Shown piece after piece: positions 4,071 to 61,845 of a DNA stretch of 64,000 nucleotides (positions are counted from its first letter, which is position 1; each line of letters starts with the position of its first letter). The notes beneath the pieces are model-generated. The model was given only the letters and a program-made list of their open reading frames with translations. It was not told the DNA's origin and did no database searches. The position numbers and the translations under genes were made by a program. The stretch is from Pyrrhoderma lamaoense (lineage: Eukaryota; Basidiomycota; Agaricomycetes; Hymenochaetales; Hymenochaetaceae), in contig NBAZ01000036.1 of the NCBI GenBank assembly GCA_002794735.1, positions 1-64,000 of the forward strand, read 5' to 3'.

Positions 4071-5764
4071 TCAAATACCATAAGAAGAGTCAACGAATCC
4101 AGCAAACTGGGGAATACTGATGTTCTCGGCTGGGTTCATATGGTCCAAATCGAGTTTGTACACCATTCCATTAGATCGGGATCTCGCAGCCTCCAACAGG
4201 CTTAGAGACATACGACTTCCAACGAGACATAAGAAAGCCGTATTCCCGAGTAGACTGAAGACAACTTGTTCGATTCCAGCCTCACCAAGATTTATCCGAG
4301 TATATACGATATTAATAGCAGAGCATATTATAATGCTTATCAAGACAGAGGAGCATGTTATGAGATACTCAATACAAGAGTGAGTAAAGCAAAGATACTT
4401 ACAGTATGTAGTAGCGGATTTGATCTTTAAGCATTACTTTTATGATGTTAGATGCTTCCAACCCTGTCACTCTCCTATCTTCAATGGCCTTGTAAATAGT
4501 CAGAAGTATAAGTAAGAGTCCGAATGCTGCTGTCCAGATCCTGCCAGATGATGTTAGTGGTTTAACACTTTACGACCGGTGGACCCTCACCAATCAATGA
4601 GCTGACAGAGATTTGCACGCTTAACCCAAAAATCATCTAGAATACCACACACTGTTATATCCTCAGGAAGAGCATATGCTTTGCTTTGACAGTCAGCTCT
4701 GCTTCACAAAGATTTATCTTAAGGTACATAGACGTACAGCGCTCAGACAAGTTAATCAGAGTAGCGAATATTAACTTCGCTATCAACTCGAAAGAGATAA
4801 GCGAGTATAAAAACATAGATAGTAGTTTGTCTGCAAGAATTAAAATTAGTTACATGAAATGATTAGGATGTACTTACTCCTATTCCAAAGTACAAGAACT
4901 CGGAGCATGAGAAGGTCTGTGTCATCGAAAATGATAGTACGGTGTCACCAAAATGTAAATAATTCTATCGATAACACTTACAGTCGATCATAACGCCAAT
5001 GAGAGTATCTAGCTCATATCAGCTTTAACGTAGATTGAGACTAACATTAATACAGCCATACCTCCAATATCTCCCCCCCAGTTAGCGAGTTGACCTATCA
5101 AATCAGATTTCATCACTAAATAGAGAAAATGTGCCCACATCTAAAGAGCATAGTCCGGTATAGTTAGATGGATATCGTGTTGAATGATAGATTGATAAGT
5201 GCATACAGTGCTGCTGTTTCATGAAGGGATGTAGCTTCAATGATTCCCGAATATCATAAGTCAAAATCTTATACTATGGTCGGTATTCATGGCTACCAGT
5301 ACTAACCAAGATATTTTGAGATGGCACCGAGTATACCAATATAACGATTCTAACAATAGCATATGTAAAGTACTTACACATGGAAAAATAGTGGTATATT
5401 CAGGAATGTACTCACAGCAAAAAACAAAATAGTTGCCAAAATGTGCTTCGGTCTCTAGTTGATCTTGAGTAAAGTACTTTAAGTTGACAGGATAAAGAAA
5501 ACTCACCTTATTCCAAAAAAATTCAATCTTCTAGGTTTGAGAAAAAGTGTTGTTCCGAGCTAATAGGTAACCCTGTGACACACCTCTTCGTCCATAGTGA
5601 TTACTATTTTTCATCCCATTAGTACTAGTATCTTTGTGAATAGGGGAAAGCCCAAACATACACGTATCAAAGATCAGCATTGTACATACAGCAATCTGAA
5701 TATATCCAGCAGTCATGTCGGATCGCACAAGCTCTTTTAACTCCGAAGAAGTAATATTAGCCAT
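4071..5764 (-). CDS. DUF6533-type membrane protein, copy 1 (divergent, 14 exons)
   Basis: This is the most divergent full copy. Exon 1 (from 5764) encodes MANITSSELK and a helix ending in an IFDT motif. The 20-nt exon 2 lies near 5584-5603 and encodes ITMDEE. Exon 3 is lengthened to 24 nt and exon 4 shortened to 39 nt, so the summed frame is unchanged. Exon 5 (43 nt) encodes NRYIGILG. Exon 6 (28 nt), the AT micro-exon 7 (5139-5140) and the 33-nt exon 8 follow the family plan. The exon 12 acceptor lies just after AACAG near 4664. The last exon (4343-4071) contains FLCLVGSRMSLSLLEAA, with SLSLLE replacing the usual FLNLKE. I found no stop when the exons are joined, so this is probably functional but diverged. 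It is a membrane protein of unknown role. Confidence 0.7.
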
Positions 5765-7225
5765 TATGTGTCTAGGATATATGAAGGTAAGAATGGGATG
5801 CTGAGTGCGGATTAGAATAGTGAGTGTAAGACTTGGATACAGGTTACCTATATAGACTGCTACTACCGATGTTGCCGATGTTATATCATGCCCATCATTT
5901 GATGTCAAAGCTATGCTCACCAACATGATACGACAACAAACAAGATGCTACTGTGCACATACCACATGGTATAGATACAACGGATCATACGGCTACCGAT
6001 AGATGTTAATGAAGTCTTTCGTTATATTGATGGAGTTGTACGTTGTATTCGGCTCTTGATATTGATTATACCGTTGATTGCACCATTGAGAATAAAACAC
6101 ATAGAAAACGTATAACGTTCTTTGACAGGGAAGCTGACAAGACGTAATTAGTTAGGCACAGTTAGATAACTTGTCCCGGTGAGTCTAGGATCCCACAGAC
6201 TGCAGACCATGTACTGACGGTATTGGATATATAGTATATCTCAAAGGTTCCAATGTCCAGTAACATCGCTTTTCAGTGAACCGGGGGATCAGACGACAAT
6301 GATGCGACTGGGAGTATCCACTTTACATATCTTGCTCATTGACATGTAGTATCTTTCCATTCTCTGTGCATGATCTCCGAGAATCGTGGGGATAGACTAT
6401 CTACGAAGTAGGAGTTGCAGCTCAATTAAGCACTATCCAGCCGTTGCTGTCGCTATGTCCATGCTATCCACTCACCTTGTCAGTCTCATCACCAATCTCA
6501 AGGTTACAATTACTAAAGACCGAGTATTTGAAACCTGGCATTCTAGCAGTAGCTTAAATCATGATGGAGAATGCACGTGGAGGGAGCTGAGTAGGCTTTG
6601 TTATACTTCAAACGTGAGCTACAAACCCGGCCTTGCCCGGTTTGTACTTGCCTTCTTCCCTTCAGCCAGGTTCACATTATTTTCACGCCCTCAATCACCT
6701 TATTATGTAGGTCTGTCATACACTTTTCTTCGACTTAACATACTTCATGTAAGCACAGGTCATAGTCTTTACGGGTCCTCACAGAAACCTGTACCACACA
6801 CGCACATCAATTATGTCCATTTACAAATACAAATCATATCACAAGATACCGATACACCACATCTCGGCTGAGATGATGGAAGTATTATCTTTACAGGTTA
6901 AAAGAACTCACGATTGATCAGTTTGTTACATCGTCAGATAATAAACAAGGGAAACTGCAACTCAACGATACTGATAAGTGGTCTCGTACGGCTATTAGTA
7001 GATTCGGATCATTCAGTATTATCCGGCGACATTTCGTACAGCACTCCCATTATTAGTATTCGGCATGATAGATTCTGCCACCGTGATCTTTTTATAGATT
7101 ATCGTCCCACCAGTGCCATCACAAACATGAATTATTATCTTTATAAGCAAGCTACGATATACACTTGAAGCGCACACTTGTTTCAACCTACTTCCTAGCT
7201 CTATCCAATCTAACCTCTGCAAAAG
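5765..7225. other. Duplicated 5' flank, upstream module S7 (plus)
   Basis: About 6380-6905 carries the upstream module in plus orientation. An ORF begins at 6386, then the conserved GTGAGCTACAAACC donor-like string lies near 6613. Near 6850-6905 is the block with the gatgatggaagt core, also found inverted at 13280-13330 and 19735-19790. It leads into the exon 1 fragment of copy 2, so it is an orphaned 5' flank whose gene is gone. Confidence 0.45.
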
Positions 7226-7884: not shown

Positions 7885-9524
7885 ATGCCCTTTGTTGACT
7901 ATTCAACCGAGGTCGCAGATCTATTGCAAGAGAACTTCGTTGGACAATGTCTACAAGCATCTGTCTTCTCACTTCTCGTATATGACACAAGTACGTTTCC
8001 TTATCATCTAGGAACGATGTAAGTCTAATATCAGTACTATTGATCAGTGATAACTATAGATAAAGAGGTAAATATACTCTTAACCAGAGAGCTTACGGCA
8101 AGTCTGATCCTAGTCTTCGTAGATCAAATATTTCTGGGTTATTTCATTCTCTTGCAACTTTTTCTTCTAGCTTACGATACGGTAGACAAAAAAATGGTAT
8201 AAGCTAACGCATATACTTTTTTTCCTTGTCAGTGTATAACCCTTATAGAGATACAAGGTATCTGATTATGATCTTTAGAACCGTTATGCTGGTATTTTTG
8301 GAGCATTTGAAAACTTGTGCTGTGCGTTTCAACACAACATGTTCATGATGTTGGTTTTTAATTTTTGGTTTTAATTCTCCTTAGTCTATTTCTCAGATGC
8401 GACAACAAATCTGTATGTAACACTTGTCAGTTTTCAAAGCATAGCTAATAATCGAAAACTCAGATGTAAATATCAGAATCTTCTCCTTTACAGAACGAAC
8501 TCAATAAATGTCAAATAAAAGGCTCTTTTTCACGATGGGCCCAGCTCACATCAGGTAGCACCAATACTATATATTACACTAGCTAGTACATAATAACTAT
8601 AAAAACTTCACAAACAGAAGCTTTCGTTGGGGTTGCGATTGACTGTACGGATTTCCCTACATCTAAATCTGAGTTTAACTAACAAAGAGACTAGACATCC
8701 TTGTGCTCCGAGTACTTGCTCTTTGGGATAATAGTGAGTGATCTGGACACTGACTGTATCTCTCTGACTCTCCTAGATAAATTATTATCGGCTTTTCTGT
8801 ATTTGGTTGTTCTCTGCGAGTCAATTGCCAAATTTGCTCTCATTGGTATAATATGTGCAGCACAAAAAAGTATGTTTTTGAATGCTCTTGTGATTTTAAA
8901 TCTGATATAGTAAAGACCAAGTGTTTGTTCTCACAGAGGAAATAATAACGTGTTTTGTGAAGGACGATAAAATTGAGCAAGCAGCTTACTACCAATTCAT
9001 CGACTGGTGAGATTGTCTCATTCACACCTCCACAACTATACGTTCATTCTCTTATAACAGGGTGATAACAGCAACCATTGGGTTCATAATTTTATCTCTA
9101 GCCCTTCTCAAAGTACTTGAACACTGGAGTCTACTAGGTCTTGAAGGGTCTAGTCTCGTGAATGTGATGATCAAGGATCAGATCATCTACTATCTTATGT
9201 ATGCACTTTTACTCCTGAAGGTACACGCTGAATCTGAACGAAGCTTGATGAAGGGTTATATTCTGTAGCGCAATAAATATCGTTGAGTCAAAGTTCAACT
9301 ATCTTGGAATACCGTCTATAAAGAAGGCTGCCACATTTGCTCTTCTCGGGAATCCCGGTTTCCTATGTCTCCTTGGGAGTCGTATGTTCCTAAATCTGAA
9401 AGAGACTGGTGATGCGAAAGTGAACGAAGGAACAGGAATTCAGATAAATATTAGCTCATCTAGTAGTATCAGTGACCCTCAATTCGCCGCTCCAGTTAGC
9501 TCTTCCTCGAACTCGGAAGTGTGA
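7885..9524 (+). CDS. DUF6533-type membrane protein, copy 3 (14 exons, 304 aa)
   Basis: Exons by my reading: 7885-7990, 8048-8067, 8123-8137, 8186-8227, 8279-8321, 8397-8412, 8464-8465, 8522-8554, 8618-8644, 8695-8733, 8777-8869, 8937-9006, 9061-9198, 9254-9524. Joined length is 915 nt with no internal stop. The DUF6533 core reads TIDKE-IKYFW-TKKWYKLTHILFFL-NRYAG across exons 2-5. Exon 6 is 12 nt shorter than usual (16 nt), a whole number of codons. Exon 13 carries IKDQIIYYLM; exon 14 carries CSAINI and FLCLLGSRMFLNLKE. Most copies share the hydrophilic Ser/Asn-rich tail ending near QFAAP. A solo LTR lies 62 bp downstream, and the gene itself looks intact. Confidence 0.85.
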
Positions 9525-9586: not shown

Positions 9587-10341
9587 TGTAGGACCAGCTA
9601 AGTGTTTGGCCGGTCGTAGTGCATTTATAATGCACTTTCTAACTCGCCGAGAAGTCCATTGCTACTACTCGGCCGCGCGCCTCGTTCATTTCTCTTACTA
9701 TTTAGCTTCACTTTCTACTCTTACTCGAGGGTAGGGTTCGTTTATACGACCCCCTCGTTTCTGATAGCTTAAACCCTTCGTCCAGTGGCATATAGCCACC
9801 TGGACTCCATGCTTTCCTTATTATCTAACCTTTATCTCGCGTTTTGCTATATAAGCCTCCAGACTTGAGGCCGTAGTGAATCACTCAATTCCCAATCAAT
9901 TCCTAGCTACTCCTCTCGGTCGCTATCTTTCTACACCCCCCCCCGAGTAGCTCTCTACTAGTCTCCTGTACTCTTTATCTACTTCTCTGCTGCTTTATTA
10001 GGCTGCCCGGGCGCGCTTGTAACGCTCTGACCGTACCGCAAGCCGTCCGGGCGGACTGAAATACTTACACTTTTACCTCAAAATACAGCCTCGGTCGGGC
10101 TCTGTTCTATGCGTTTCTACTACTTTTACTGGTCTGTGAAGTCTCAGCTTGCCTCGAGGTCTCTATCAGTCTCTACGGTCCGACCGAGATCTCGGCCGGA
10201 CGGCCGAGGTCGAGTATCTCGCTATTTAGCCCCCAAATCTTAGCCTGAGCATCGTGTCTGGTGTAGGCAGACTCTAAACCCCACGTCCTCGCCACTAAAT
10301 ACAACACCAAGGTCAAAATCTGACCAAAAGTTTAGTTTTCA
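9587..10341 (+). mobile_element. Solo LTR of the gag-only retroelement family
   Basis: The 755-bp unit starts TGTAGGACCAGC and ends TTTTCA. It is nearly identical to the two LTRs of the element at 37358-41357, but in the opposite orientation. It is bordered by a perfect 4-bp target duplication, CTAC (9583-9586 and 10342-10345). It contains a CCCCCCC run near 9940. No internal element sequence remains, so it is a recombination product. Confidence 0.93.
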
Positions 10342-12046: not shown

Positions 12047-12049
12047 GAG

Positions 12050-13970: not shown

Positions 13971-13977
13971 TTTGTAG

Positions 13978-14795: not shown

Positions 14796-16399
14796 ATGTC
14801 TGTTGGCGAGTCTGTAGCTGTGGTGTCGAGTTTCTTGCAAGAGATTTTCATTCAGCAATGCATAGATGTATCTATTTGCTCTCTTCTCATCTATGACTCG
14901 AGTACGTTTCCCTATCGTCCGTCTTTGAGTCACATCTGATATATACCAGTGATATCTATGGATAAAGAAGTGAGCTCATTTAAAAATAGAGTTCACGTAG
15001 TGATATTTATTCTAGTTCTTATAGATTAAGTACTTCTGGGTTAATACCATCGCTCTACGGAGTTTTCCCAAACTTAATATTATCACAGACGAAGAATTGG
15101 TATAAACTGGCGCATATACTTTTCTTCATTGTCAGTAAACAGATTTACTTGTTGAACTCAGTGTCAGACAATAATCTCTAGAATCGCTACGCTGGAGTAT
15201 TCAAAGTCACCGCTTCTTTATTCAGTGAGGCCCAACTTTATTAGACTGAGTTTTTTTTGTTATAACATTATCACAGATCAAAGTCTAAAAGCGTCGACAA
15301 ACCTGTATGTCTATTAAATAACTAACTCATATCATCTAATAAACAAAGTTTCAAGATGTAAGAACTATTATTGTCTCTTCGTAGCAACAACAAGCTTACG
15401 TACTTCAACATAAAGGCCAATTCTCGCTGTGGGCAGAACTCATATCAGGTAGACAATTTTATTATATATTCTGATTGGCTTCACTTGGCTGATACTAGGT
15501 AGATGATTTAATTGGTGTTATAATCGACTGTATGAAAACTTCGAGTCAATTCGGACTAAGCTCATAGAGATTATAGGCATTCTTGTACTACGAGTACTTG
15601 CCCTCTGGGATAGAAGTGAGTAGAATATACTATAACAGAATCTTACTCTGACCCTCGTAGATATTCTATTGGCGTTCACTCTCTACTCACTTATTCTGTG
15701 TGAGGTTGTTGCGAAATTTGTTTTTGGTAGTATAGCAGGTGCAACACAACAATGTACGTCCCCATATATTCTTCAAAGCATTGAGATTGACCTAGTAAAG
15801 CCCAGGAATATGTTCTCACAAATGAGATTATAATTTGTGCTTCATATAACAATCAGCTTGCGCGTTCAGTAAAGTTTGATTTGATTGATTGGTGAGATTT
15901 GTCATTTCACTTACTAGTATGTTTACGAATAGCTTTGATATAACAGGATCATAACTGCGACTGTTGCATCTATTCTACTATCTTTGGCCCTTTTAAAAGC
16001 AATCAAGCATTGGAAATCATCGGGTCTAGGGAAGTCCGGGCTTGTCAACATAATGATAAAGGATCAGATCACTTATTACTTTGCGTATGTTACTATACCT
16101 TAATTTCTTTCGAAAAGTACATACTGAAACATAGCGGTGTTTGGTAAAGGGTCCTTTTCTGTAGTTCGATAAACATCATCGGTTCAAGAATAAACTTTCT
16201 CGGAGTGCCATCTATAGTGAGGATTGCTATTTTCGATGTTCTAGGGAGCCCTGTCTTTTTATGCCTCCTTGGAAGACGCATGTTCCTTAATCTGAAAGCA
16301 GCTGGTAGTCTAGATGTCACCGAAGGAACGGGCATTCCGTGTAATAATTCTTCGGCTAGGACTCTCAGTGATCCGCGGTTCTCTTGTCCCACTGACTAA
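14796..16399 (+). CDS. DUF6533-type membrane protein, copy 6 (14 exons, about 285 aa)
   Basis: Exons: 14796-14901, 14950-14969, 15025-15039, 15089-15130, 15182-15224, 15277-15304, 15356-15357, then the 33-, 27-, 39- and 93-nt exons between about 15417 and 15754, exon 13 at 15947-16084 and exon 14 at 16150-16399. The acceptor normally used for exon 12 has changed from GATAG to GATTA. A downstream acceptor (CGCGTTCAG) gives a 22-nt exon 12 and keeps the frame, so the protein would lack about 14 residues of the loop before the F-D-L-I-D-W motif. The rest is open to the TAA at 16397-16399. It may be a working gene with a shortened loop or an early pseudogene. Confidence 0.7.
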
Positions 16400-17835: not shown

Positions 17836-19444
17836 TCATACACCCGAGCTTGAAGAACTAGCAGGAGCAGCGAACTGAGGATCACTGACAGTACCATCTG
17901 GACCATCTCTACTTGGAATACTCGTTCCATCATTTACTTCCAACCTACCGGCCTCCTTCAGGTTTAGGAACATGCGACTCCCAAGGAGACATAGGAATCC
18001 AGGGTTCCCAATAAGATTAAGGGTAGCTGCTTTCAGTTGTGACTGTGCTTCAACGACATTAATCCTTGATTCAGCAATGTTTATTGCACTACAGAATATA
18101 ACCCTTCACCGAGTTTTGTCATGTTACAATACATACTCTCAGAAGGTGTTGAACTGCTTACATTAAGTAGTATATTATCTGATCCTTGATCACTATGCTT
18201 ATAATTCCAGATCTCTTGAAACCAGATAACCTCCAATGCGCAACTGCCTTAAAAAGGGCCAGAGACAAAAGAATGGATCCAATAATTGCTGTCGTTACCC
18301 TGTTATATAAGGTTATACGCATACATAACAAAAAAAGGAGCGTTTTAATATTACCAGTCAATGAACTGAAGGCTCTCTTCAAGCCCAGCACGAGCATCTG
18401 CCGTTCCGCACAGTACAATTCCGCTTATGAGCTCCATTGCTTGACCTTTGATGGATTAGCTATATAAGACCGAAGAGTGTGCATAAACGTACTTTGCTCT
18501 GCCACACCCAAGGAACCAAGGAGTGCAAATTTTGCAGCCGCCTCACAGATAATAATTGAGTAAAGAGTATAAGATAGTACTTTGTCTACGAGAGTCAGAG
18601 AGATTTAGTTTGAGTAGAATACATTTACTTTTATCCCAAAGTGCAAGTACTCGGAGTACAAGGATGTCTATATTCTCGGTTAGCTCTTCCCAGACTAGAT
18701 CATGAGATGGCCGCACAGTCAATTGACATTGCAATGAAACCATCTGTTTAATATCAGACATAAACTATCAGTCAATATCTGCTAGATACTGATCGTACCT
18801 GATGCGAGCTCAGCCCACTGCGAAAATAGGCCTTAGAGATGATTACATGAGTATATCGTGTAGGAGAGGGGATACTGGTAATTACATCTGAGAGTTGGAT
18901 CATTAGTGATTCTTGAGATAAACCATGCAAGTACTTACAGCCTTGTTGTCGCTTCCTGAGACTGGTCTGCAGTATGTTAAAAGAAAGAATGAGCTTGTTG
19001 TTTTGAGACTCACAGAATAATGTAGCTACAGCTCCAAATATACCAACGTAACGATTCTAGAGTTTGAAATCAGATGCTATGATTACGCATATAATCTAAT
19101 CTCGTACAATGAAGAAAAGTGCATGCGTTAGTATATACCATTTCTTTGTCTAAAGTGTTGTTAGCTAACGGAGCGGAACTGCAAAAAGAGGGAATGACCC
19201 AGAAATATTTGATCTTTTAGATACTTAGTTAGATCATGTATGCAATGCTCAGTACTGGAACAGCTCACTTCTTTATCTATAGTTATCACTGATAGATATT
19301 AGGGTTGTCTCTGGTAGAAATATTATAATGAAAAAAAAAGATACCTGCGTCATATACGAGAAGGGAGCAGACAACTATTTGTATGCATTGTTCAATGAAA
19401 TTTTCTTGCAAGATATCAGAGACTTCAAGTATAATATCAGACAT
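17836..19444 (-). CDS. DUF6533-type membrane protein, copy 7 (14 exons)
   Basis: Exon 1 (19444-19345) encodes MSDIILEVSD and ends in SLLVYDA. The core continues through exons 2-5, with NRYVGIFGAVA in exon 5. Exon 6 (28 nt), AT micro-exon (18886-18887) and 33-nt exon 8 (LFSQWAELAS) follow. In exon 12 the first AG leads out of frame, while the next (ACGGCAG near 18390) gives a 43-nt in-frame exon. Exon 13 (about 18308-18170) carries the membrane segment and IKDQIIYYLM. The last exon (18103-17836) ends with QFAAPASSSSSGV before TGA. It is divergent to copy 6's neighbourhood and convergent with it. It appears intact. Confidence 0.82.
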
Positions 19445-22081: not shown

Positions 22082-23686
22082 TTACACACTCGAAGTTGAG
22101 GAAGAACTAGCAGGAGCAGCGAACCTAGGATCGCTGATATTACTAGCTGGGTTATTGTCACTCGGAATGCTTGTTCCTTCGTCCACTTCTGCATTTCCAG
22201 CCTCCTTTAGATTCAGAAACATGCGACTCCCAATAAGGCACAGGAAACCAGGGTTCCCGAGAAGGGCAAGCTTCTCAACAGAGGGCGTTTCAAGGAAGTT
22301 GATCTTTGACCCGTAAATGTTTACTGCACTACAGAAAATAACCCTTCATCGTGTTTTGCTATGTCCGAAGTCTAGTTTTAGATGGAACTAGAGTACATAC
22401 ACTATGTAGTAGATAATTTGATCCTTGATCATTATATTCACGAGGCTAGATCCTTTATAACCGGATAGTTTCCAATGCTCGATTGCTTTAAAAAGTGCCA
22501 GAGATGAAAGAATGAAACCAGCGACTGCTCTTATCACCCTGTTAAACTGTGTCATACACTCTCCTGCGATTGATAAGGAAAAAGAATCTCACCAGTCAAG
22601 GAATTGGAAGTAAGCCGCACGTTCAACACGATCTTCGCTCACGCTACAGTATACGATTCCTTGCGTGAGGGCGAATATTTGACCTTTATCGCGTTAGTCT
22701 TGATATCTCGGAGAGTATACAAGAGCATACCACGCTCCACCATAATAAGCATGCTACTGATTGCAAAACTCCCAGCCACTTCACAGAAAATGAGTGAATA
22801 GAGGATGGTCGATAGAATTTTGTCTGTCGGGTGTCAGAGAGACCTATAAGTAAAGTATATCCTACTTACTTTTACTCCAAAGTGCAAGTACGCGGAGCAC
22901 AAGAACATCTGAGTTACTTATAAGACAAGAATAGACTGAACTAGAGTAAACTCTCACAATCAATTGTAACACCAACGAAGGCAACTTTTCTCCATTAGTC
23001 TTCTTATCGATCATCATCTGTAAGATAAATATGTTACCTGTTATGATCTCGGCCCATCGTGTTAGTTTGCCTAAGAAATAAGTACTTGAGCACATCTGGA
23101 GAAAGGATTGTAATAGCATTTACATCTGCAATTTTGATTATTCGATGCTTTGAGATAAACTATACATATACATACAGTCTAGTCGTCGTTTCCAGAGATT
23201 GGACTGTACAGGTGTGTCATAAAAAAGGGTCATATTTTTGTCTTGAAACTCACGGTATAATGGTAATGCAGCTCCAAGTATACCGACATAACGGTTCTAA
23301 GTAATAAGATCAGAAACTAGAATTGCTCAGAGAACGTATGCACCGACAACAAAGAAAAGTATATTCGTTAGTTTATAGCTTTTTTTCGTCTATAATCTTG
23401 TTAACAAGAGGCTAGATTTGCAAGAAAGTGGACTAACCCAGAAGTACCTGATCTGCGATTAGAAGAATTGGATCTGTTATATGCCTTCTGATAGTAGTAG
23501 ATAGACTCACTTCCTTATCCATCGTTATCACTATAAGATATTAGAATTCGCTCTATTATGTATGATGAGAAAAACAATGCTTGTGTCGTATACGAGAAGA
23601 GAGCAAACAGCTGCTTGAGTACATTGCTCTACGAAAGTGATTCGCAAGACGTCTTCAACCCCGCTTGAAAAGTAATGAAATGGCAT
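22082..23686 (-). CDS. DUF6533-type membrane protein, copy 8 (14 exons)
   Basis: Exon 1 starts at 23686 (MPFHYFSSG) and ends SLLVYDT. Exon 2 encodes ITMDKE; exon 5 (43 nt) encodes NRYVGILGAAL; exon 6 is 28 nt; the AT micro-exon is at 23124-23125; exon 8 encodes KLTRWAEIIT. The exon 12 acceptor is CGCAAG, and the exon is in frame (VERAAYFQFLDW). The last exon (22343-22082) ends RFAAPASSSSTSSV and TAA. No stop was found in the joined frame, so this is an intact copy in tandem with copy 9. Confidence 0.82.
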
Positions 23687-40599: not shown

Positions 40600-41357
40600 T
40601 GAAAACTAAGCTTTTGGTCAGATTTTGACCTTGGTGTCGTATTTAGTGGCGAGGACGTGGGGTTTAGAGTCTGCCTACACCAGACACGATGCTCAGGCTA
40701 AGATTTGGGGGCTAAATAGCGAGATACTCGACCTCGGCCGTCCGGCCGAGATCTCGGTCGGACCGTAGAGACTGATAGAGACCTCGAGGCGAGCTGAGAC
40801 TTCACAGACCAGTTAAAGTAGTAGAAACGTATCGAACAGAGCCGACCGAGGCTGTAGTTTGAGGTAAAAGTGTATGTATTTCAGTCCGCCCGGACGGCTT
40901 GCAGTACGGTCAGAGCGTTACGAGCGCGCCCGGGCAGCCTAATAAAGCAGCTGAGAAGGTGATAAAGAGTACAGGAGACTAGTAGAGAGCTACTCGGGGG
41001 GGGGGGGTGTAGAAAGATTGCGACCGAGAGGAGTAGCCAGGAATTGATTGGGGATTGAGTGATTAACTACGACCTCAAGTCTGGAGGCTTATATAGCAAA
41101 ACGCGAGATAAAGGTTAGATAATAAGGAAAGCATGGAGTCCAGGTGGCTATATGCCACTGGACGAAGGGTTTAAGCTATCAGAAACGAGGGGGTCATATA
41201 AACGAACCCTACCCTCGAGTGAGAGTAGAAAGTGAAGCTAAATAGTAAGAGAAATGAAGGAGGCGCGCGGCCGAGTAGTAGAAATGGACTTCTCGGGCGA
41301 GTTAGAAAGTGCATTATAAATGCACTACGACCGGCCAAACACTTAGCTGGTCCTACA
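40600..41357 (-). repeat. Upstream (5') LTR of the 4.0-kb element
   Basis: Element-sense 5' LTR, 758 bp. Its outer end is the TGTAGG terminus at 41357 and its inner end TTTTCA is next to the putative primer-binding site at about 40580-40599. It should contain the element promoter. Confidence 0.92.
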
Positions 41358-42845
41358 CCAACATTCCCAAAATTATTGAGATAACCCCATTTGAACGATG
41401 TACCTTCATCAGAATCAAGGAGTGAAGCGATAATATTCACTACACTGCAAAATATGATCCTTTACTGTATGTGAGCGAAGGAGAATATCTGCTGCGAGAT
41501 TTGAACTCATACATGAAATAGTAGATGATCTGATCTTTGATTATTATACTCAGAAGACTAGACCCTTTCATATCAGAGAATTTCCAATTCCTGAAGGCTT
41601 TGTAAAAAGCCAATAGTATGAGAATCAATCCAACAGCTACCGTCACGATCCTGTAGTCGGGATTCAGGGATAATCATCGAAGATACAAAGATAACTGGGT
41701 GAACTTACCAGTCAATGGTATAGAAAATATTAACAAGCTTAAGTAGATTCTTCGATGAAGAATCGCATACCGTTATCCCTTCAGCTATATAGTATGATCG
41801 AACTAAAGGCGATAAGCCGACATACATAAGAAGAGCGAGACACATACATTTCTCTAGGCTAGTAGCTGTGATAGCAAGTACTATTTTTACAATGGCTTCG
41901 AAGATGATTAGTGAGTAAAGAGTAATGCGTAGTATCTTATCTGTGACAGTCAGTCTGGTTCAGAACTTTCATGCGTTTCCCCTTCTTAACTACTTACTTT
42001 TATGCCAGAGAGCAAGGACCCGAATCAGAAGGATGTCTATTTACTCATTAGTTGAGCAAAATAAACCTTCGTGAGTATCATACAGTCAATTGATATATCA
42101 ATCAAAACATCTGTGAAATTCAAGTTAAGAGGAAGAAGAATATATGTAGCTATCAAAAGTGATACCTCCTATCACAAGCGTCCAGGATGCGTATTTACCT
42201 TGATGTATCTAATTATTGAAACGTCCAGGGAAGAAGAGAGGGATTCAGAGAAAAATTACATCTAAAAACGTTTGATCAGTGCCCTAATATCATGAGAAGC
42301 TTGGTATACATACATTTCTGTTGTTACATCTAAGCTCATTCCTAAGCCGTCCCTGGTGTGAATAAACAAGTGCTATACTACATTAACCACGTAATACTCA
42401 CCACGCAACCTTGTAACAGCGGAAAATATGCCGACATAGCGGTTCTAGATAAATGTACAATGGTAAGACTAATATCAGGAGTAAGATACGCATACGAACA
42501 ATGAAGAATAGTATGTTCGTTAATCTAAACCAATGCCGCGTCTAGATCATATTTTAAGCTATGGGGAAGAAAAAAGCGAGGGAAAGGCTAACCCAAAAAT
42601 ACTTGATCTAAGAAGTTTGGTGTCAGTTCACTTGATCTGAAATTTCTTTTTGATAGACTCGCTTCTTTATCAAAAGTAATCACTATAGTATATGCAGATA
42701 AGGGCAATCAAGACAGAAGGCATATGAATACTGTCATACATGAGTCGAATATGAGAAGTGAGCACACAGCTACTTGAAATGATGTTTCTATATAGGTATC
42801 TTGCATGATAAATACCGCTTGAGACGTCTGAGACGCTACAGACAT

Positions 42846-43986: not shown

Positions 43987-45749
43987 ATGTCTTATGCTAA
44001 CATTCCGGCTGAAGTTATAGCGTATACGCGAAAAATCTATATTCAGCAATACATACAACTGGCTGTCTGTTCGCTTCTCGTATATGACGCAAGTATGTAT
44101 CATTATTGTTCTACGACTGAGGCGAAATTAATGTAAAATCAGTTATAACTGTAGATAAAGAAGTACGTCTATTTGAGTTAGAGGTTGGGTAGTAGTTCTA
44201 ACCCCGACTCTAAAAGGTTAAATATTACTGGGTCAGCTTTTCCTTTCCTTTCGTGAAAGTCTCTCCTTTGCCTAATAATACCTAATAATATAATAGACGA
44301 AAAGATGGTATAACCTTTCTCATTTACTTTTCTTCGTTGTCAGTATCCATCTTCGGCTGTGATTGTAGTATCCGAGTCTGATATCGGCACATAGAATCGT
44401 TACATCGGCGTATTTGGAGCCATCTGTAGAATATTTCGTGAGTTTAGGTTAAACACGAAATGGCCTCATCAATAACTTTCTATAGTCCAGTCTTTGCAAG
44501 CAACAAATAAACTGTATGGACACAGGTCACTCATTTTATAATCGCTACTAATTGCCTCTTTTTTCAGATGTGAATACTAGAATCATCAATTTTCTGCAAC
44601 AAGCATATGTACTTATAGCCAGGCATCTTCTCACTCTGGACTGGAACCATATCATGTATTATCATTTCCTTATAGATTTTGACTGATGTTATATGGCTAA
44701 CTTTAACTAGACAACTTCGTTTGTATTATACTGGATTGTGTGGGCTTCTCATTGCTAAGTTTTAATATAACTAATATAATACATAGACGTTTTAACGCTC
44801 CGAGTACTTGCACTTTGGCATAGAAGTGAGTAAAATGGGCGCCGTATAACCTACCTTCTGACGACAGTAGACAAGCTGCTATCGTTATCTCTCTACTCAA
44901 TCCTTATCTTCGAGGCGGTTGTGAAGTTTTTACTCAGTAGTATATCAATCGCTGAGCAACGAGGTATTGTTCATACACTTTTCATGATGAAGTGAAGCTG
45001 AAGCGATAAAGTTCAAGCATTTGTCATATCAAGAGGATTAACAGTGTCAGTATGTGGTACGGAAAGTGGTCAAATTGAGCGCGCAGTCTACTTTGAATTC
45101 ATTGATTGGTCAGACTCAGTCAATCATACATTAGCATGCGTTACTCATATAAGTTCATATCAAAGGACTACGACAGCAATTGTTGGCTTCGTTCTTTTGT
45201 CTCTGTCCATTATCAAAGCGATAGATAACTGGAGACTATCAGGATTAAGGGGCTCTAGTCTTGTAAATATATTGATTAAGGATCAGATTATTTATTATAT
45301 CATGTAAGTACATGTACTTTGATTTTCAACAGAAGATTGTACCGAAACTGAATGAAACTTGGCGAAGGGTTATATTTTGTAGCGCAATGAACATTGCCTC
45401 TACAAAACTCAATACCGGATCATTTACCACAGAGAAAAGTGCCATTTTTGATATTATTGGAAACCCTGGTCTCCTATGTCTCATTGGAAGTCGCATGTTC
45501 CTGAACTTGAAGGAGGCAGGAAGTCTGGAGGTTAATGAAGGAACGGATGCTCCCTGTGATGTAGTGACGGCTAGGAGTGTCAGTGATCTCCACTTCGCTG
45601 CTCCAGCCAGCTCCTTTCCAAGTATGAGAATGTATATATTCTCTAGTTTCAGTCAGCAAACTGATTTTATTATCTTAGACTCAGAAACAGAAACTGGTCC
45701 CCAAGTTCTTCACTCAACTACTGAGGATAGAGTGGAAGATTCCAGTTGA
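43987..45749 (+). CDS. DUF6533-type membrane protein, copy 15 (reference copy, 14 exons, 343 aa)
   Basis: Exons: 43987-44092, 44143-44162, 44217-44231, 44297-44338, 44395-44437, 44486-44513, 44568-44569, 44623-44655, 44711-44737, 44787-44825, 44871-44963, 45045-45108, 45166-45303, 45368-45749. Joined length is 1032 nt, open. Exons 2-5 give the DUF6533 core TVDKE-VKYYW-TKRWYNLSHLLFFV-NRYIGVFG. Further hydrophobic segments lie in exon 1, exons 9-10 (VLTLRVLALW), exon 11, exon 13 (IVGFVLLSLSI) and at the start of exon 14, fitting a seven-helix-like membrane protein. Exon 14 has CSAMNIA, LLCLIGSRMFLNLKEAG and a tail about 40 residues longer than usual ending EDRVEDSS. Role unknown. Confidence 0.9.
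44568..44569 (+). other. Two-nucleotide micro-exon (exon 7), reference copy
   Basis: The dinucleotide AT lies between TTTTCAG and GTGAAT. Exon 6 ends CT and exon 8 starts GC, so only CT+AT+GC gives Leu-Cys and then the conserved FS-x-W frame. Equivalent positions in other copies: 5139-5140, 8464-8465, 15356-15357, 18886-18887, 23124-23125, 25871-25872 (GT), 30099-30100, 32688-32689, 42260-42261, 52802-52803, 55297-55298, 57428-57429, 60870-60871. Confidence 0.8.
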
Positions 45750-48163: not shown

Positions 48164-49273
48164 CTAAGATGGTAGTTCAGTACGATTTGGAGAGTAAACA
48201 AGTGTCTTGTACTTCTCAGCAATGGCCTTTAGGTCATCTTTAAAGTTTGGCGAATCCGTTTCGTATACCGCGCATTTCTTGACTAAAGCTAGCTCCTGGT
48301 TTGTAATGGCATTTCCTGTAGTCATTATCAGCGTCAATGCTGATACATCGAGTTCCATCTTCGTTGTAATGTTCCCAATAACAAGGAAGCCAGTCAGTAC
48401 CTTTATCAGATTCTTAGTGTCAGAGACTTTAGCGGCATAAATAAGATAATTCTTTAGTTGTACTTCCGCCTCTTCCTTCTCTGCTGGGGATATCTGTTTT
48501 TTCTTTATCTCAATTACCGATATAAGAATGTCCTTGTCAGTATCTTCGCATGCTTTGACAACCATGAAATCAGGGATATATCTGATCTGACCTCCTGTTA
48601 CACCAAGAGAAGTTCTTGGTTTCTTCTTCTCAGTGGCCTTTACGATGGCGGTCCTTCCTACTTCAGAAGAGCTTGGCTTATAACGAAGGATACCTTGAGG
48701 TTTGATCATATAATGGTAACGTATATCGAAGCAGCTATACAAGAGTGCATTTATTGGCCCATACAAAGATGCTTCATACGGAGAGATTTGGCTGATATCA
48801 TCTGGGCAACCACACTGATTTGCTAATCTAGCTGAAAGCCAGTCCACAGGTGATCCCTATGCAGATAGTTAATTAATCAAAGTACTGGTACACGCAGGGA
48901 GGCATATATAAACTCACAGATCGCGACGACGGAACTAGGCTTGTAGAACGAGCTTGAGATTTAGCTGATACTGCTGGACTTGCAGAGCGACCCCGATTTG
49001 GGCTTACAGAACGGCTCTGAGATGCACCTACCTGAGCAGCCAATGGTGCACTCTAATGGTGTATAATCAGCTACTTTTCCATATAATCGTCTTTGTATCA
49101 TGGCTTACTGGTTGTGAAGACTGATGGGCGTTGCCTGCTGCAACTGGATTAGAAGTACCCGAAGCTCTGGTCGTGTTAGTACTAGTAGTTTGGTTCGAGG
49201 TGCTTGACGATGCTTTCTGTTTTTGCTTTGGTCTAATTGTTATATTGGGATGGAGAACGAAGTTATCTGACAT
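48164..49273 (-). CDS. PD-(D/E)XK nuclease-like protein (3 exons, 330 aa)
   Basis: Exons: 49273-49109, 49052-48918, 48856-48164, joined in frame by introns of 56 and 61 nt with GTAAGC/TTAG and GTGAGT/ATAG ends. Residues 1-100 are Ser/Thr/Asn-rich and probably disordered, with an SPNRGRSASP-type repeat. The folded part (about 105-330) has an early E in PYEASLYGPI, then YIPDFMV (the PD), ISVIEIKKKQ (the E-x-K) and later QLKNYLIYA, the order and spacing expected of the PD-(D/E)XK nuclease fold. Family members cut or process nucleic acids; its substrate cannot be told. It stands alone among membrane-protein genes and has no tail-to-head partner. It could be a lineage-specific nuclease or derived from a mobile element. 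Confidence 0.7.
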
Positions 49274-52237: not shown

Positions 52238-53852
52238 ATGCCTTTTATTGACTTTATAACCGAGTTCTCAATCCTGTTACGAGAAGACTTTGTACAACAA
52301 TACATACAAGTGTCTATCTGTTCACTTCTCGTATATGACACAAGTGTGTTTTCATATAATCTTCGTTCGATATAAATCTGACGTCTATCAGTGTTGACCA
52401 TGGATAAAGAAGTGAGTTGTCTCATACCATAAGGTACATAGTATCTCTGATCTAAGGCTTCATAGATCAAGTACTTCTGGGTTAGAACTCTATCCTGCCC
52501 TTCTTTCGCAAGTTTACCTTTCAGCTGACAACTTTCAAGACAAAAGGATGGTATAACCTGACACATATTCTATACTTCATTGTGAGTACACATCTTATAC
52601 TACTTCTCATAGTATCTGATTTCAATGTAGAACCGTTATGTCGGTATATTTGGAGCTATGACATTATTCACCCGTGCGTCCAGACCGGATGATTGTTTCT
52701 TCTTATATATAACTTGATACAGTCCACCTTCCGACAATGACAACAAAATTGTATGTATATGTTTGGCTTATCTGATTTGAGCTTATAATTGCTACTTCCA
52801 GATGTAATTACTACTATCTTCGCCTCCTTAAACGTACTCACGTACTTGTATCTAAGGCTTACTTTCGTACTGGGCCGAGCTCATGTCAGGTATCATCTGA
52901 ATTCTATATATAAGTGAATGAACTGAGATACGATTGTTGATGCCGACAAGATGTTATCGTTGGAGTTACAGTTGATTGTAGGGATTAACAACGATACAGA
53001 TCCAGACCAGTAACTGATAGAGAAGTAGACGTCCTTGTACTACGAGTGCTTGCGCTTTGGCATAAAAGTAGGTGAATGGTATTCAAAATATACCTCTTTC
53101 TGACTCCCGTAGACAAGCAATCATCGATTATCCTTTATTTCATTATTATTTGTGAAGCAGCTGCGAAATTTGCACTCAGTAGTATGATAGCTTTAGTGCA
53201 ACAAGGCATGTTCTTGTACACCTTTTAGGATAGTAAGGCTGATCTTATCTAGTTCAAGCAACTTCTTTTTCAAAAGAAATATCTTTCTGTTCAGTTGGTG
53301 ATAATCGAGTCGGGCATGCACTTTATCTTCAATTCGTTGACTGGTGAGCTACTGTCTTTCATTGGCATGTATACAAGTAACAATGCGGCACAGGATCATA
53401 ACAATATCATTTGGATTTGTCCTTTTGCTTCTGGCCCTTTACAAGACAGTCGAACACTGGAGACTATCTGGTCTGAAAGGATCTGCTCTTGTAAATATCA
53501 TGATCAAAGATCAGATCATCTATTATCTCATGTGCGTATTTTTTCTCCCTTAGAAGGGGTTGTGCCTGATCTAAGCATTATCTTTTGAAGGGTTCTGTTC
53601 TGTAGTGCGATAAACATCGCCGAGTCCAGGATAAAGGTTCTCGTACCATTCTCTTTTGAAGGGTCTCTCCTCAATGTTCTCGGGAGCCCTAGCTTCTTAT
53701 GTATCCTTGGAAGTCATATGTTCCTCAATTTGAAAGAGGCGGGCGACTTGGGAGTCAATGAAGTAGTGGGTATATCTGGTAACAATAACCCAGCTAGTAC
53801 TATCAGCGCCCCCCAGTTTGCGCTTTCAGAAAGCTCTTCTTTGAGCACATAG
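52238..53852 (+). CDS. DUF6533-type membrane protein, copy 16 (14 exons, 298 aa)
   Basis: Exons: 52238-52343, 52392-52411, 52466-52480, 52540-52581, 52631-52673, 52723-52750, 52802-52803, 52857-52889, 52951-52977, 53029-53067, 53113-53205, 53295-53343, 53394-53531, 53591-53852. Joined length is 897 nt, open. Exon 11 is followed by a GC donor (GCATGT). Exon 12 is 15 nt shorter than in copy 15 (VGDNRVGHALYLQFVDW). The conserved last-exon block reads FLCILGSHMFLNLKEAG, with SR changed to SH. First of four head-to-tail complete copies. Confidence 0.88.
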
Positions 53853-54734: not shown

Positions 54735-56361
54735 ATGTCTTTTGTTGACGAGCAACAATCTGTGGTGTTAAGCTTATTGAAAGAGATATTCATCCAAGAA
54801 TGTATACAAGTAGCTGTCTGCTCGCTTCTTGTGTATGACACAAGTGGGTTTCCTTTCACGAGCGCTGCTCAGGCTCAGGCTAACATATTACAGTGATAAC
54901 CATAGATAAAGAAGTGAGTAGTTCCGGAGGTACAAAACACTGAACATATCTATAATTGATTTTATAGATAAAGTATTTTTGGGTGAGTCTCTCTTTTGCG
55001 ACCTGAACTCATAGCTAATAATTAATGCAGACAAAACGATGGTATAGCCTGGCGCATATCCTCTTCTTTGTTGTATGTCACAACTCCAGATCGCATCAGT
55101 AATGCCTGATATCCTTCTTAGAACCGGTACATCGGCATATTTGGAACTATCACGTATTTCTTCTGTATGTGTTGAGTGGGGAAAAATTTTTTCCTTTTCT
55201 CATACAATTTGTTGTAGATGAGTCACTTGTGGCAACAACAAAACTGTATGCTTTCTCGATATCAAATTTTATCTTATCTGAAGCTCACTTTCTTAGATGT
55301 GATTACGTCGCTTCTTTATTCCGAGCTGAACTGAGCTCATGCAAATGCATTTGAAGGTTCCTTTTCTCTCTGGACTAATCTAATCTCAAGTATAACATTG
55401 ATCTATACCCTCCTCATCGAACTGTATGGCTGATACTAAGTAGATATTCTGATTGGCGTGACTATTGACTGTAAGGGTGTTTCGTAGCTCATATATGAGA
55501 CTTTATAGAAAGGAACGTAGATATCCTCACACTTCGGGTACTTGCATTATGGGACAAGAGTGAGTAGAGAATATTTTGATTGTATATCCTCCTCTGAGTC
55601 TCGTAGACAAGCTATTGTCAATAGCTCTTTTTTCGATCATATTTTGTGAAGCAGTTGTAAAACTCGCACTCGGTGGCGTGGTCATTGTTATACAACAAGG
55701 CATGACTCCCTACTTTCTTCAAGATACTGATACTAAGTGTATTTAGTTCAATCGAATACTCTCACAAGAGGTATATCAGTGTGCTTCTCAGAAAGCGCTC
55801 AGATCCAACGAGCAGTCTACTTCCAACTCATTGATTGGTATGGGTTTATATATTAATCATCGGCATGTATACACATATAAGCTCTATCTCGTAGGGTGAT
55901 AACAGCGGCTGTTGGGACCATTCTTTTGCTTCTGGCTCTTGTCAAAGTGATTGAGCATTGGAGATTATCAAGCTTTAAAGGATCTGTCCTTATAAACATA
56001 ATGATCAAGGATCAGATCGTCTATTATCTCCTGTATGCGTTTCTTGGTCTTCCCAGAAACCTTTCATCTAATATTCTAACTTGCATGGTAAAGGCTCTTA
56101 TTTTGCAGCACAATCAACATAGTGCATTCAAAAATCAACTTTCTTGGAACCTCGTCTACAATCAAAACGGCGATACTCACTTTTCTTGGAAATCCTGCAT
56201 TTCTTTGCTTTTTTGGAAGTCGTATGTTCCTAAATTTGAAGGAGACTGCGGATCTGGGCACGGTCGTAAGAACTGATATCCCAAGTAACAATAACCAACT
56301 TAGTATTATCAGCGAGCTGCATTTTGCTGGTCCAGTTGGATCCTCCTTGGACGCAAGATAA
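54735..56361 (+). CDS. DUF6533-type membrane protein, copy 17 (14 exons, 307 aa)
   Basis: Exons: 54735-54843, 54894-54913, 54968-54982, 55031-55072, 55122-55164, 55218-55245, 55297-55298, 55357-55389, 55444-55470, 55521-55559, 55607-55699, 55771-55837, 55895-56032, 56094-56361. Joined length is 924 nt, open. Exon 1 is one codon longer than typical. Exon 11 ends before a GC donor (GCATGA), the second such case in the array. The core is TIDKE-IKYFW-TKRWYSLAHILFFV-NRYIGIFG. The last exon has FLCFFGSRMFLNLKE and ends SSLDAR. Confidence 0.88.
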
Positions 56362-56867: not shown

Positions 56868-58483
56868 ATGACTATTGCAGATGAAGTAGTCGAAATATCA
56901 AGTCTCCTGGAAGAGTATCTCATTGATCAATATGTGCAAGTGGCCGTTTGTTCTCTTCTCGTATATGATACAAGTACGTCTTGCATGCTATCCACTCTCA
57001 AACATTTTCTAATCAAAGAAAGCCAGTTATTACTTTTGATAAAGAAGTATGTCTGCTCAAAGCTGAGGGACATACGTTATGCTAAGTTCTGATTTCACTC
57101 AGATCAAGTATTTCTGGGTCAGTTACATCCCGTGTAAAAACGCCCTTTTGTTAACAACACTTAAGACAAGTAGATGGCATAACTCAGTACAGATACTATT
57201 CTTCCTTGTCAGTATTCTTCTTTTAATACTACTTATCTCAGCTTATAATAGTCTCTAGAACCGCTACTATGGTACTATTGGAGCTATTGTAGGTTTCGTT
57301 CGTGAGTTTAAAGCATGATCATGGTGGTTTTCTCCCTACTAATAGCTTCAGATGAGTCTTTCAAAGTAACAACGAAACTGTATGTATGTCTATCATCCAT
57401 CTCGGTTATCTCCTAACCTATTTTTAGATGTATATATTAGATACCTTCTTCTTTATCGTACACTTGAGTGACTATACTTCAAGGCATCTTCTCGCAATGG
57501 GCTAAGCTTATCTCAGGTGTTATCCTTATTTTATACATCTAAACCGCTTTCTCATAGTTAATATCGATTAGATGATTTGATTGGCCTTACGATTGACTGT
57601 GAGGATTGCCCAAGATCCTAGTCTAAGCTTATTTAAAATGAGCTACAGATATTTTAATGCTCCGAGTGCTTGCTCTTTGGAATAAACGTAAGTAGTACAT
57701 ATATGCTCCCATATCTCTCTGACTCTCGTAGACAAGATACTGTCGATTAGCCTCTACTTGTTTTTTCTCTGTGAAGTGATTATGAAATTCTCGCTCAGCA
57801 GTATGATAGGTATATTGCAGCGAAGTAGGCTCTCTTACATTTATTCTGTGATGGTATGGCTAATCTAGCTCAGCTCATGCAGATGCTCTCACGGAAAATA
57901 GAACAGTATGCGTTTCAGAGTACGATCAAATTGAGCGTGCAACCTTCTTTGATTTCATCGATTGGTGAGAGCTACCACACGCCTTATGTATGTATATATA
58001 AATCTGATCTTATATTATAGGGTTACGACAGCATCTGTTGGGTTCATTCTTCTTTTCTTAGCTCTTTTCAAAACAATAGAGAATTGGAGAATGTCAGGTC
58101 TGAGAGGGTCCGGCCTCATCAATATAATGATTAAGGATCAGATCATCTACTATCTTATGTATGCACTCAGTCCTTTTCCGTAAATTCTTTTATCAAGGTT
58201 AACTGGGACTTTGTAAAGGCTTATATTTTGTAGCTCAATAAACATCTCCAGATCAAAGATCAACTTTCTTGGTCCATTTTCCATAGAGAAGGGGGCCATA
58301 CTTGGTGCTCTTGGGAACCCTGGACTTCTATGTCTCTTCGGAAGCCGAATGTTCCTAAGTCTGAAAGAAGCCGGAGATATAGAAACCACAGAAGGATCGA
58401 GTATGCGGAATAACAATAACCCAGATGGTACTCTTAGCGATCTTCAGTTCACTGGAGCAGCTAGATCTTCTTCAAGCGCATGA
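56868..58483 (+). CDS. DUF6533-type membrane protein, copy 18 (14 exons, 302 aa)
   Basis: Exons: 56868-56973, 57027-57046, 57103-57117, 57166-57207, 57259-57301, 57352-57379, 57428-57429, 57484-57516, 57572-57598, 57649-57687, 57732-57824, 57907-57964, 58021-58158, 58219-58483. Joined length is 909 nt, open. Without the AT micro-exon, exon 8 would hit TAA within eight codons. Exon 8 reads IFSQWAKLIS, exon 12 ERATFFDFIDW, exon 14 LLCLFGSRMFLSLKEAG. All introns are GT..AG and short. Confidence 0.9.
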
Positions 58484-60312: not shown

Positions 60313-61845
60313 ATGTCTAACACTGATGATACTTATCTGGTATCGGTTCTTTTGAAAGACAATTTTATTAAGCAGTGCATACAAGTAGCCATCTGCACGA
60401 TACTTATATATGATACTAGTACGTTTCTTCATAACATAATCCTAAAACAAAGCCAATGAAAAATAGTGATTACTATAGCCGAAGAGGTGAGTTCATCCGA
60501 GATCAGAAGGGCGTCATATATCTGATTTTAGTGTCTCAGATCAAATACTTCTGGGTTAGTTCGATATTTTGTTCCTGAGTACTTTGACTAATACTCTTCT
60601 AGACATTTAAACGTCATAGTCTCACACATATCCTATTCTTTCTTGTCAGTATACATGTGAACTGATACGTTCAGTTCCTAACATCTACTATCAGAACCGT
60701 TACGTTGGTATACTGGGTGCTATCGCAGCATTATCATGTAGGTTTCAAACGGGACTAAAGATGAATTTATTTGCTCAGATTAGTATATAGCTCTGTCTTT
60801 ACAAGCAACGGCCAGCATGTACGCATGTACACAACCCTTCTCCCTTAATACAGCTAACGAAGTTCTCAGATGTATGAAAGAACTATCTCCCCATATTTCC
60901 TCCAATAGACTTATATTCCTATGCGTAAGGTTCCTTCTCAATCTGGATTGATTACATTTCAGGTAGCGATGCTATCATATAGACTTCAGTTGGAATCACG
61001 TAGCTGATAGTTAATAGGAGCTTTTATTGTGGTTATAATTGACTGTATGAATTTCTCATATCTTTGTTCGGATCTAGCTGAGAGGGAATCTAGATATCCT
61101 TATACTTCGGGTGCTCGCACTATGGAATAACAGTAAGTGATCAAGCTATAATTGAACATATTCTGACTCTCGCAGACAAAACAATATCTGTTTTTTTGCG
61201 ATCTCTTTTTTCTTGTGAGGTCATTGCAAAATTTATTCTCGGAAGTGTGGTGGTTAACGTACAGAAACGTATGTTCTCGTACCAGGTCCACGATAACTTA
61301 TCTCACCATGTTTAGCTCATCCGATTGCACTCACGAAAGAAATAGTAATATGTATTGTAGAGAGCAACAGGTATGTACGTGCAGTTTACTTCCTATTTAT
61401 CGATTGGTAAGAGTTTCCTAGTACGTGTTACACGAGCCGCGCTGATATAATATCATAGGATTGTAATTGCAACTGTAGGATGCATCCTTTTCCTTTTGGC
61501 ACTCTTCAAAACAATTGGACGTTGGAAAATATTGGGTATACAAGGACACAGTCTTGTAAACATTATGATCACAGATCAAATTATCTACTACCTTATGTAT
61601 GTGCACGTACTTCAAGTATTCCACGAGTACTAAATAAATTTAATAAACATCAAAGGGTCATATTCTGTAGTGCAATAAATATTGCCACTTCAAGTATCAA
61701 CTACCTTGGGACATTTTCGATAGCGAAGGAAGCTATTTTTAGTCTTCTTGGAAGCCCTAGTTTCCTATGCCTCCTCGGAAGTCGCATGTTCTTGAACCTG
61801 AAGGAAGCTGCAGAATTGAATGGCGCTATAGACGCAAGTGTTTAA
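60313..61845 (+). CDS. DUF6533-type membrane protein, copy 19 (14 exons, 278 aa, short tail)
   Basis: Exons: 60313-60418, 60467-60486, 60540-60554, 60603-60644, 60695-60737, 60791-60818, 60870-60871, 60930-60962, 61018-61044, 61093-61131, 61176-61268, 61346-61406, 61459-61596, 61656-61845. Joined length is 837 nt, open. Exon 2 reads TIAEE instead of TIDKE, so the usually conserved Asp-Lys pair of the core is Ala-Glu. The IKDQ motif in exon 13 is ITDQ. The tail after FLNLKEAAEL is only about 10 residues, so the usual Asn/Ser-rich QFAAP end is absent. A possibly functional but divergent copy. Confidence 0.85.

Follow-up and report, generated by a model that had tools for sequence, protein, structure and literature searches.

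A probable two-nucleotide coding exon retained across a large DUF6533 seven-helix gene family of Pyrrhoderma lamaoense

The window analysed here is a 64,000-nucleotide (nt) stretch of the Pyrrhoderma lamaoense genome (contig NBAZ01000036.1, positions 1–64,000; contig C36 of an assembly of 30.65 Mb in 72 contigs). It contains 14 full-length paralogues of a large family of DUF6533 seven-helix proteins, located on both strands and named c1 to c14. In our models each gene has 14 coding exons, and the seventh, with a length of 2 nt, appears to be a real and normally included coding exon, a reading to which the comparison of the DNA leads us to give a probability of about 95%. Exons 5 through 11 measure 43, 28, 2, 33, 27, 39 and 93 nt, identically in all 14 copies. 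The two bases of exon 7 complete the preceding codon and provide the first base of a conserved cysteine codon. With exon 7 included, the spliced proteins contain 282 to 354 amino acids, and the three of the 14 that were scanned all match the Pfam family DUF6533 (PF20151) at 49.1 to 57.2 bits, the gathering cut-off being 24.1. A Pfam scan of two single-exon open reading frames (ORFs) of the family returned no domain.

An earlier note on this DNA had proposed a 2-nt micro-exon in all 14 full copies, and each of them does have the arrangement AG-NN-GT between exons 6 and 8, the two bases being AT in 13 copies and GT in one, c6, which is evidently the copy numbered 9 in that note (AG-GT-GT). Exon 6 mostly ends in CT (10 of 14) and exon 8 begins with GC or GT (14 of 14), as had been described. 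Without the two bases, every copy reaches a stop codon, between codons 2 and 33 counted from the junction of exons 6 and 8 and no later than codon 8 in eight copies; adding the two bases restores a long frame in all 14. The two bases lead into a cysteine with a tryptophan after it, as had been claimed, but the spacing given for these residues, Cys-x-x-(F/L)-(S/T)-x-W, was wrong: all 14 window copies read Cys-x-(F/L/Y)-(S/T/A)-x-W, the tryptophan being at +5. Intron 6 is 48 to 66 nt long (median 51) and intron 7 is 44 to 65 nt long (median 55). As the remaining introns of these genes have medians of 45 to 59 nt, the gap between exons 6 and 8 has the size of two standard introns and not of one.

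The gene that had served as the example, c10, covers positions 43987–45749 on the plus strand with its 14 exons and encodes 354 amino acids. The interval 44486–44655, singled out earlier, runs exactly from the start of its exon 6 to the end of its exon 8. It is made up of exon 6 (28 nt, 44486–44513), intron 6 (54 nt, GTATGG...CAG, 44514–44567), exon 7 (AT, 44568–44569), intron 7 (53 nt, GTGAAT...CAG, 44570–44622) and exon 8 (33 nt, 44623–44655). In the other plus-strand copies exon 7 is likewise AT and is located at 8464–8465 in c2 (exon 6 to exon 8 span 8385–8554), 15356–15357 in c3 (15277–15448), 30099–30100 in c7 (30021–30187), 32688–32689 in c8 (32608–32782), 52802–52803 in c11 (52723–52889), 55297–55298 in c12 (55218–55389), 57428–57429 in c13 (57352–57516) and 60870–60871 in c14 (60791–60962). 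On the minus strand it is AT at 5139–5140 in c1 (span 5062–5234), 18886–18887 in c4 (18799–18966), 23124–23125 in c5 (23038–23203) and 42260–42261 in c9 (42166–42341), and GT at 25871–25872 in c6 (25773–25951).

Two complete introns lying back to back, with an AG and a GT close together, are also what would be expected of a spliceosomal twin intron, or of recursive splicing that removes the whole stretch of about 108 nt in two steps and leaves nothing behind. Such a removal, of which the recursive form had been raised before, now seems negligible, as the join of exons 6 and 8 that it produces loses the frame and runs into a stop in all 14 window copies. A second frame-restoring event elsewhere, which had also been considered, does not find a place either: there is no compensating shift downstream, and the later exons are in frame in all 14 copies.

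The same arrangement was found across the genome. A chain scan of the loci examined gave 61 copies of the window subfamily, and one more, L055, was added by eye, making 62 that were scored. Another 29 candidates for exon 8 came from a second scan; five of them are directly preceded by AG and were counted as copies, bringing the number examined to 67, while the genome total may be higher. AG-NN-GT is kept in 66 of these 67. Among the 62 scored copies, all of which have it, the two bases are AT in 48, GT in 11, TT in two and AC in one (in three copies with two candidate sites, the one ending in T was taken); a cysteine codon results in 61, and an AG precedes exon 8 in all 62. The later copies with AG-NN-GT are at L023 (AT), L047 (a second copy, AT), the plus strand of L064 (AT) and L065 (TT). 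The first of these has an exon 6 of 27 nt and a broken frame, while L065 has regular exons 5 to 10 in frame, reading ..TINCQYSVW... The remaining copy, on the minus strand of L064 (contig C19, near position 54915), lacks intron 6. Its exons measure 43, 30, 33, 27 and 39 nt and it reads ..GSRTCRFALWTSNAASWVTVLIIDYILILRV.. (including RTCRFALW), with 24 residues from the cysteine to a conserved arginine, as elsewhere. Its 30-nt exon corresponds to the 28 and 2 nt made contiguous, in frame and with the same cysteine codon, and thus provides natural evidence that the two bases are coding. Such contiguity with a neighbouring exon in a relative lacking the intron was found in this one copy.

Constraint was measured on 58 copies, after removal from the 62 of four with at least 95% identity over exons 5, 6 and 8; the four later AG-NN-GT copies and the fused copy of L064 were left out. 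Flanked by 38 nt or more on either side, the motif AG[AG]TGT[AG] occurs in 54 of the 58 copies, compared with 0.9% per copy expected by chance, and a plain AGNNGT in all 58, compared with 10.3%, the expectation being taken from first-order Markov sequences built from each copy. The AG and GT that flank exon 7 are invariant. Its second base is T and the cysteine is kept in 57 of these distinct copies, in agreement with the earlier proposal that this T opens the cysteine codon. A purine stands at the first base in 56 of 58 copies, and this base is A in 19 of the 20 copies in which any base would keep a leucine. Exon 6 contains no stop in its own frame in any of the 58 copies, compared with 25 and 28 in the other two frames, and its ratio of non-synonymous to synonymous differences per site (pN/pS) is 0.64 in its own frame and 1.03 and 1.22 in the others. 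For exon 8, stops are found in none of the 58 copies when exon 7 is included and in 24 when it is not, with pN/pS of 0.68 and 0.89, respectively. Only a shift of +2 reconciles the codon phases under which the two exons are constrained. Other in-frame solutions with GT-AG introns of at least 38 nt and shifts of up to 44 nt were also sought. A different extra exon would serve in 15 of 62 copies and a single-intron solution in 17, neither with a common geometry, and single-intron shifts were rejected on these grounds. In 33 of 62 copies, none of the kinds of solution tested keeps the frame apart from exon 7.

Eleven other DUF6533 loci (L040 and L066–L075) were read; two of them, L071 and L074, were left unassigned to the groups described here. 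The five genes of group B (L066, L067, L069, L073 and L075) all have a 2-nt exon, located two bases upstream of the exon of the window subfamily (group A): a phase-0 donor is followed by an intron, the bases AT, AC, CT, GC or GG, a second intron and then N-TGY. This exon is the sole in-frame solution of the kinds tested in four of the five, while L067 has an 8-nt alternative. If it is skipped, a stop is reached at the second codon in three genes and at the tenth in one, and not within exon 8 in the fifth. By eye, the region of exons 5 and 6 forms one uninterrupted exon in group B. The four genes of group C (L040, L068, L070 and L072) do not have a 2-nt exon; a single intron lies directly before the codon that precedes the cysteine, so that this codon and that of the cysteine are contiguous. 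Exon 5 measures 43 nt in group C, as in group A, and exon 6 measures 26, 29, 41 and 38 nt, the 26-nt version being equal to the 28 nt of group A minus the two bases that would correspond to the exon of group B. Relative to the cysteine codon, introns are thus located at −1 and +1 in group A, at −3 and −1 in group B, at −3 in group C and at +1 in the fused copy. From these positions, groups A and B share the intron site at −1 and not a 2-nt exon. The tree of the groups separates A, together with two Phellopilus gene models, from B and C (0.97) and places B beside two of the group C genes (0.78); it has no outgroup and is built from short sequences, so that gain and loss of introns are not settled by it. 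We tentatively suggest, at a little under even odds, that the codon pair at the cysteine, with its three intron sites spaced exactly 2 nt apart, is a recurrent birthplace of 2-nt exons. Those of groups A and B would have arisen separately, each when a new intron was inserted 2 nt away from one already present, or else through intron loss, if the ancestor had introns at all three sites and hence two 2-nt exons in a row. The family would in this way hint at how such exons originate, through intron gain or loss at sites separated by 2 nt.

The closest named relatives that were found are gene models from Pyrrhoderma noxium (a basidiomycete of the Hymenochaetales), Sanghuangporus and Phellopilus. 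The P. noxium model P0001, which is about 45 to 55% identical to its best matches in the window genome, reads ..TKLCDLGLFYDW.., and its residues fit a read-through past the donor AT-GTGAY; the P. noxium model P0012 reads ..NAMCMPPYSS.., which fits a read-through of GT-GTATG. Both comparisons were made at the protein level. The two models could represent errors of a gene predictor, as might occur at a 2-nt exon. The Phellopilus model P0020 reads ..NETLCLGFFW.. and the model P0006 reads ..NETLRLGFYW.., with the same spacing. Two further entries, P0002 (a contig of 1563 nt) and P0005 (979 nt), contain ORFs that run without introns across downstream exon joins, from exon 10 in P0005 and from late in exon 11 in P0002, and by their lack of introns are probably transcript contigs of a related species. 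A protein search with the N-terminal halves, aimed at a transcript ORF across exon 7, returned five Phellopilus gene models and no transcript.

Several observations weigh against exon 7 as we describe it. It is deduced from comparison of DNA, and the two probable transcripts, which start no earlier than exon 10, fail to cover it. The paralogues are related, and counts taken over them are not independent tests. In L062 the two bases are AC and would encode arginine. The neighbouring borders are not all regular: GT directly follows the 28-nt exon 6 in 60 of 62 copies (6 nt further on in L047 and L063), AG precedes exon 6 in 61 (not in L018) and GT follows exon 8 in 61 (6 nt further on in L059); exon 5 of L016 is probably misplaced, yet was kept in the statistics. 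At the donor of intron 7, position +5 is G in no more than 36% of copies, compared with 81 to 91% for introns 5, 6, 9 and 10 and 43% for intron 8. Finally, five of the 15 aligned models from related species (P0008, P0011, P0014, P0016 and P0018, of Sanghuangporus and Phellopilus), and P0015 outside the alignment, read as if exon 5 were joined to exon 8.

This last arrangement, one long intron with exons 6 and 7 both skipped and no 2-nt exon, is in frame, as 28 and 2 nt add up to 30. As an account of the family it is very improbable. Over the 58 copies the join would place cysteine at the conserved position in 29, arginine in 20, glycine in five and serine in four, where inclusion of exon 7 gives 57 cysteines and one arginine. 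The stop-free reading of exon 6 in its own frame in all 58 copies, with its lower pN/pS, argues against it, as do the constant length of this exon in nearly all copies, the uninterrupted exon 5–6 region of group B and the 30-nt exon of L064. Joint skipping of exons 6 and 7 could possibly occur as a minor isoform, the pair behaving as an in-frame cassette. The protein would then be ten residues shorter, with a residue other than cysteine at that position in 29 of 58 copies.

The three residues that P0001 has in addition after the cysteine raise the further possibility of a longer exon in place of the 2-nt one, of 11 nt for example, ending at a later donor, and 15 of 62 copies do contain an in-frame longer alternative of some kind. 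None of these is common to the copies, however, and 47 of 62 have none. A longer exon would also break the spacing of 24 residues between the cysteine and the arginine, which is constant in the 13 window proteins scored and, by eye, in c1, and which is found as well in all five group B genes and in three of the four of group C (L070 has a methionine instead of the arginine, and L068 was not followed that far). A longer exon is thus extremely unlikely.

At the intron 7 donor, an A occupies position −2 in 81% of copies and position +4 in 88%. The matches of this donor to the U1 complement average 5.28 with intron 6 present and 5.34 after its removal, compared with 5.16, 4.79, 5.66, 4.12 and 5.63 for introns 5, 6, 8, 9 and 10, respectively. 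From these means the donor is of normal strength, borrowing from the first base of the exon, and they give no hint of the order of removal. A scan with a loose branch-point motif, which is weak evidence, found the motif in 54 of 58 copies for each of introns 6 and 7. We propose that the two introns would each be recognised alone, by intron definition across about 50 nt, since U1 and U2AF would hardly fit together on AG-NN-GT; given this crowding, introns 6 and 7 would be removed sequentially. Intron 6 is somewhat the better candidate to leave first, so that the two bases would already be attached to exon 6 when intron 7 is removed. The opening base of exon 7 would also serve the intron 7 donor as its position −2 and pair with U1, and this pairing would explain the A at 19 of the 20 fourfold-degenerate sites. 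A study of worm and mouse cells (PMC8378409) proposed that exons too small for exon definition use intron definition, which is the default where introns are short, and the introns of about 50 nt in the window genes fit that proposal. Sequential splicing is a route to the same product and not a rival to the 2-nt exon.

A model of P0001 of moderate confidence, including the three doubtful residues after the cysteine, was calculated with AlphaFold2 from an alignment of 17 rows, with a mean predicted local distance difference test score of 69 and a predicted template modelling (TM) score of 0.60. It contains helices at residues 6–45, 49–82, 85–118, 122–149, 168–245, 251–259 and 262–289 and a hairpin formed by residues 152–158 and 161–166; there are seven helices only if the 78-residue helix 168–245 is counted as two. 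The cysteine encoded across exon 7 (Cys85) is the first residue of helix 85–118, and a second one, Cys164, is located in the strand 161–166 of the hairpin. Both cysteines are present in all 13 window proteins scored (c1 was not scored). Comparison of the model with the Protein Data Bank (PDB) using Foldseek listed 50 matches, with expectation values (E) from 2.9e-4 to 2.0e-3 (at most 0.001 for ten chains) and TM-scores from 0.41 to 0.59. By their titles, 49 of these 50 listed matches are class A receptors. A sequence search of the PDB with a profile of seven family members gave no match. Class A G protein-coupled receptors (GPCRs) have a cysteine at the start of helix 3 and another in the second extracellular loop, and the placement predicted for P0001 would be comparable. 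The exon 7 cysteine is probably the helix 3 partner of a GPCR-like disulfide with the cysteine in the loop before helix 5. The 2-nt exon suggests that several public gene models of this large receptor-like family in related fungi are wrong at that place, hiding the probable disulfide cysteine.

Exons of this kind, of 1 to 5 nt, are already known. Exons of 1 nt have been described for the plant genes APC11 and VPS55 (PMC4674806, PMC8831610), and with such exons proven elsewhere the size of exon 7, which would be among the smallest known, is not a record. As here, these ultra-short exons lie between two introns, are required by the frame, were missed by annotation and are contiguous with their neighbours in intronless relatives; unlike here, they are 1 nt long, belong to plants and occur in one or a few genes per genome, and have proof from RNA, with a reporter in addition for APC11, where ours is comparison of DNA. 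The closest fungal case is the 1-nt exon of Fusarium CYP621A (PMC12940212), which was likewise deduced from the frame and an intronless relative and is located inside a conserved motif; an intron of more than twice the median length was also used as evidence there. That exon is 1 nt long, is found in orthologues across species of an ascomycete group and is covered by RNA reads, whereas the exons described here are of 2 nt, in a basidiomycete, in more than 60 paralogues of one genome and in two registers. Within the present genome, the fused copy at L064 plays the part that an intronless relative had for Fusarium (PMC12940212). The introduction of the same paper mentions exons of 2 to 5 nt for Arabidopsis, Drosophila and human, the same size class as exon 7. 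The P450 genes of Phanerochaete chrysosporium similarly form a multigene family in a basidiomycete, in which tiny exons are numerous and introns measure 45 to 55 bp; the shortest exon reported for them is of 6 bp (PMC1184071). Spliceosomal twin introns share with the present case that a single site in a fungal gene holds two introns, side by side or one inside the other, but they leave no exon between them (PMC12403724, PMC9024468); here, on the evidence of the frame, 2 nt stay in the messenger RNA. A literature search that included few subscription papers, some of them in part, found no 2-nt exon in a basidiomycete, the shortest one named being of 6 bp, and neither a 2-nt exon maintained throughout a family with over 60 genes nor two neighbouring registers in related subfamilies. 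Within that literature, both the scale and the presence of two registers seem to be new. Since exon definition has no room on a 2-nt exon, the more than 60 natural versions of AG-NN-GT form a panel for the study of touching splice sites: which intron leaves first, which two bases are required, and why A is held where the protein is indifferent.

The family itself is large, with at least 152 exon-level matches to exons 13 and 14 in the genome (on contigs C36, C45, C48, C49, C17, C14 and others), which represent a large tandem expansion of one receptor-like family. Contig C49 has near copies of the window genes (92% identity across a stretch of 392 bases, and 100% across one pair of exons), and is either an allelic contig or the product of a recent segmental duplication. 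Between the full copies of the window, fragments of the family (single exon-like matches) are located near 12915 and at 27339–27413, 37299–37355 and 63776–63934; these were left out of the copy count. GC-AG borders recur among the introns of the family: c5 has them at intron 1, c8 at intron 4, c9 at intron 2, and c11 and c12 at intron 11. In the model of c1, the borders of exons 3 and 4 differ from those of the alignment, and this copy was excluded from the lengths of introns 3 and 4; the start codon of c14 was not placed.

The last exon of c9 (41171–41459) extends into a repeat, which is present at 9594–9648, 35615–35669, 38054–38108 and 41296–41350, once on the plus strand and three times on the minus strand. 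We read the copies near 38.1 and 41.3 kb as flanking the ORFs 38410–39018 and 39392–40141 in the manner of long terminal repeats. These two ORFs, on the minus strand, lie within a patch of higher GC content (0.48) and presumably resemble retrotransposon gag-type sequence; a Pfam scan of ORF 39392–40141 gave no match. A further ORF on the minus strand, 48164–48847, encodes 227 amino acids with a weak match to PDDEXK_9 (E 0.075, below the cut-off).

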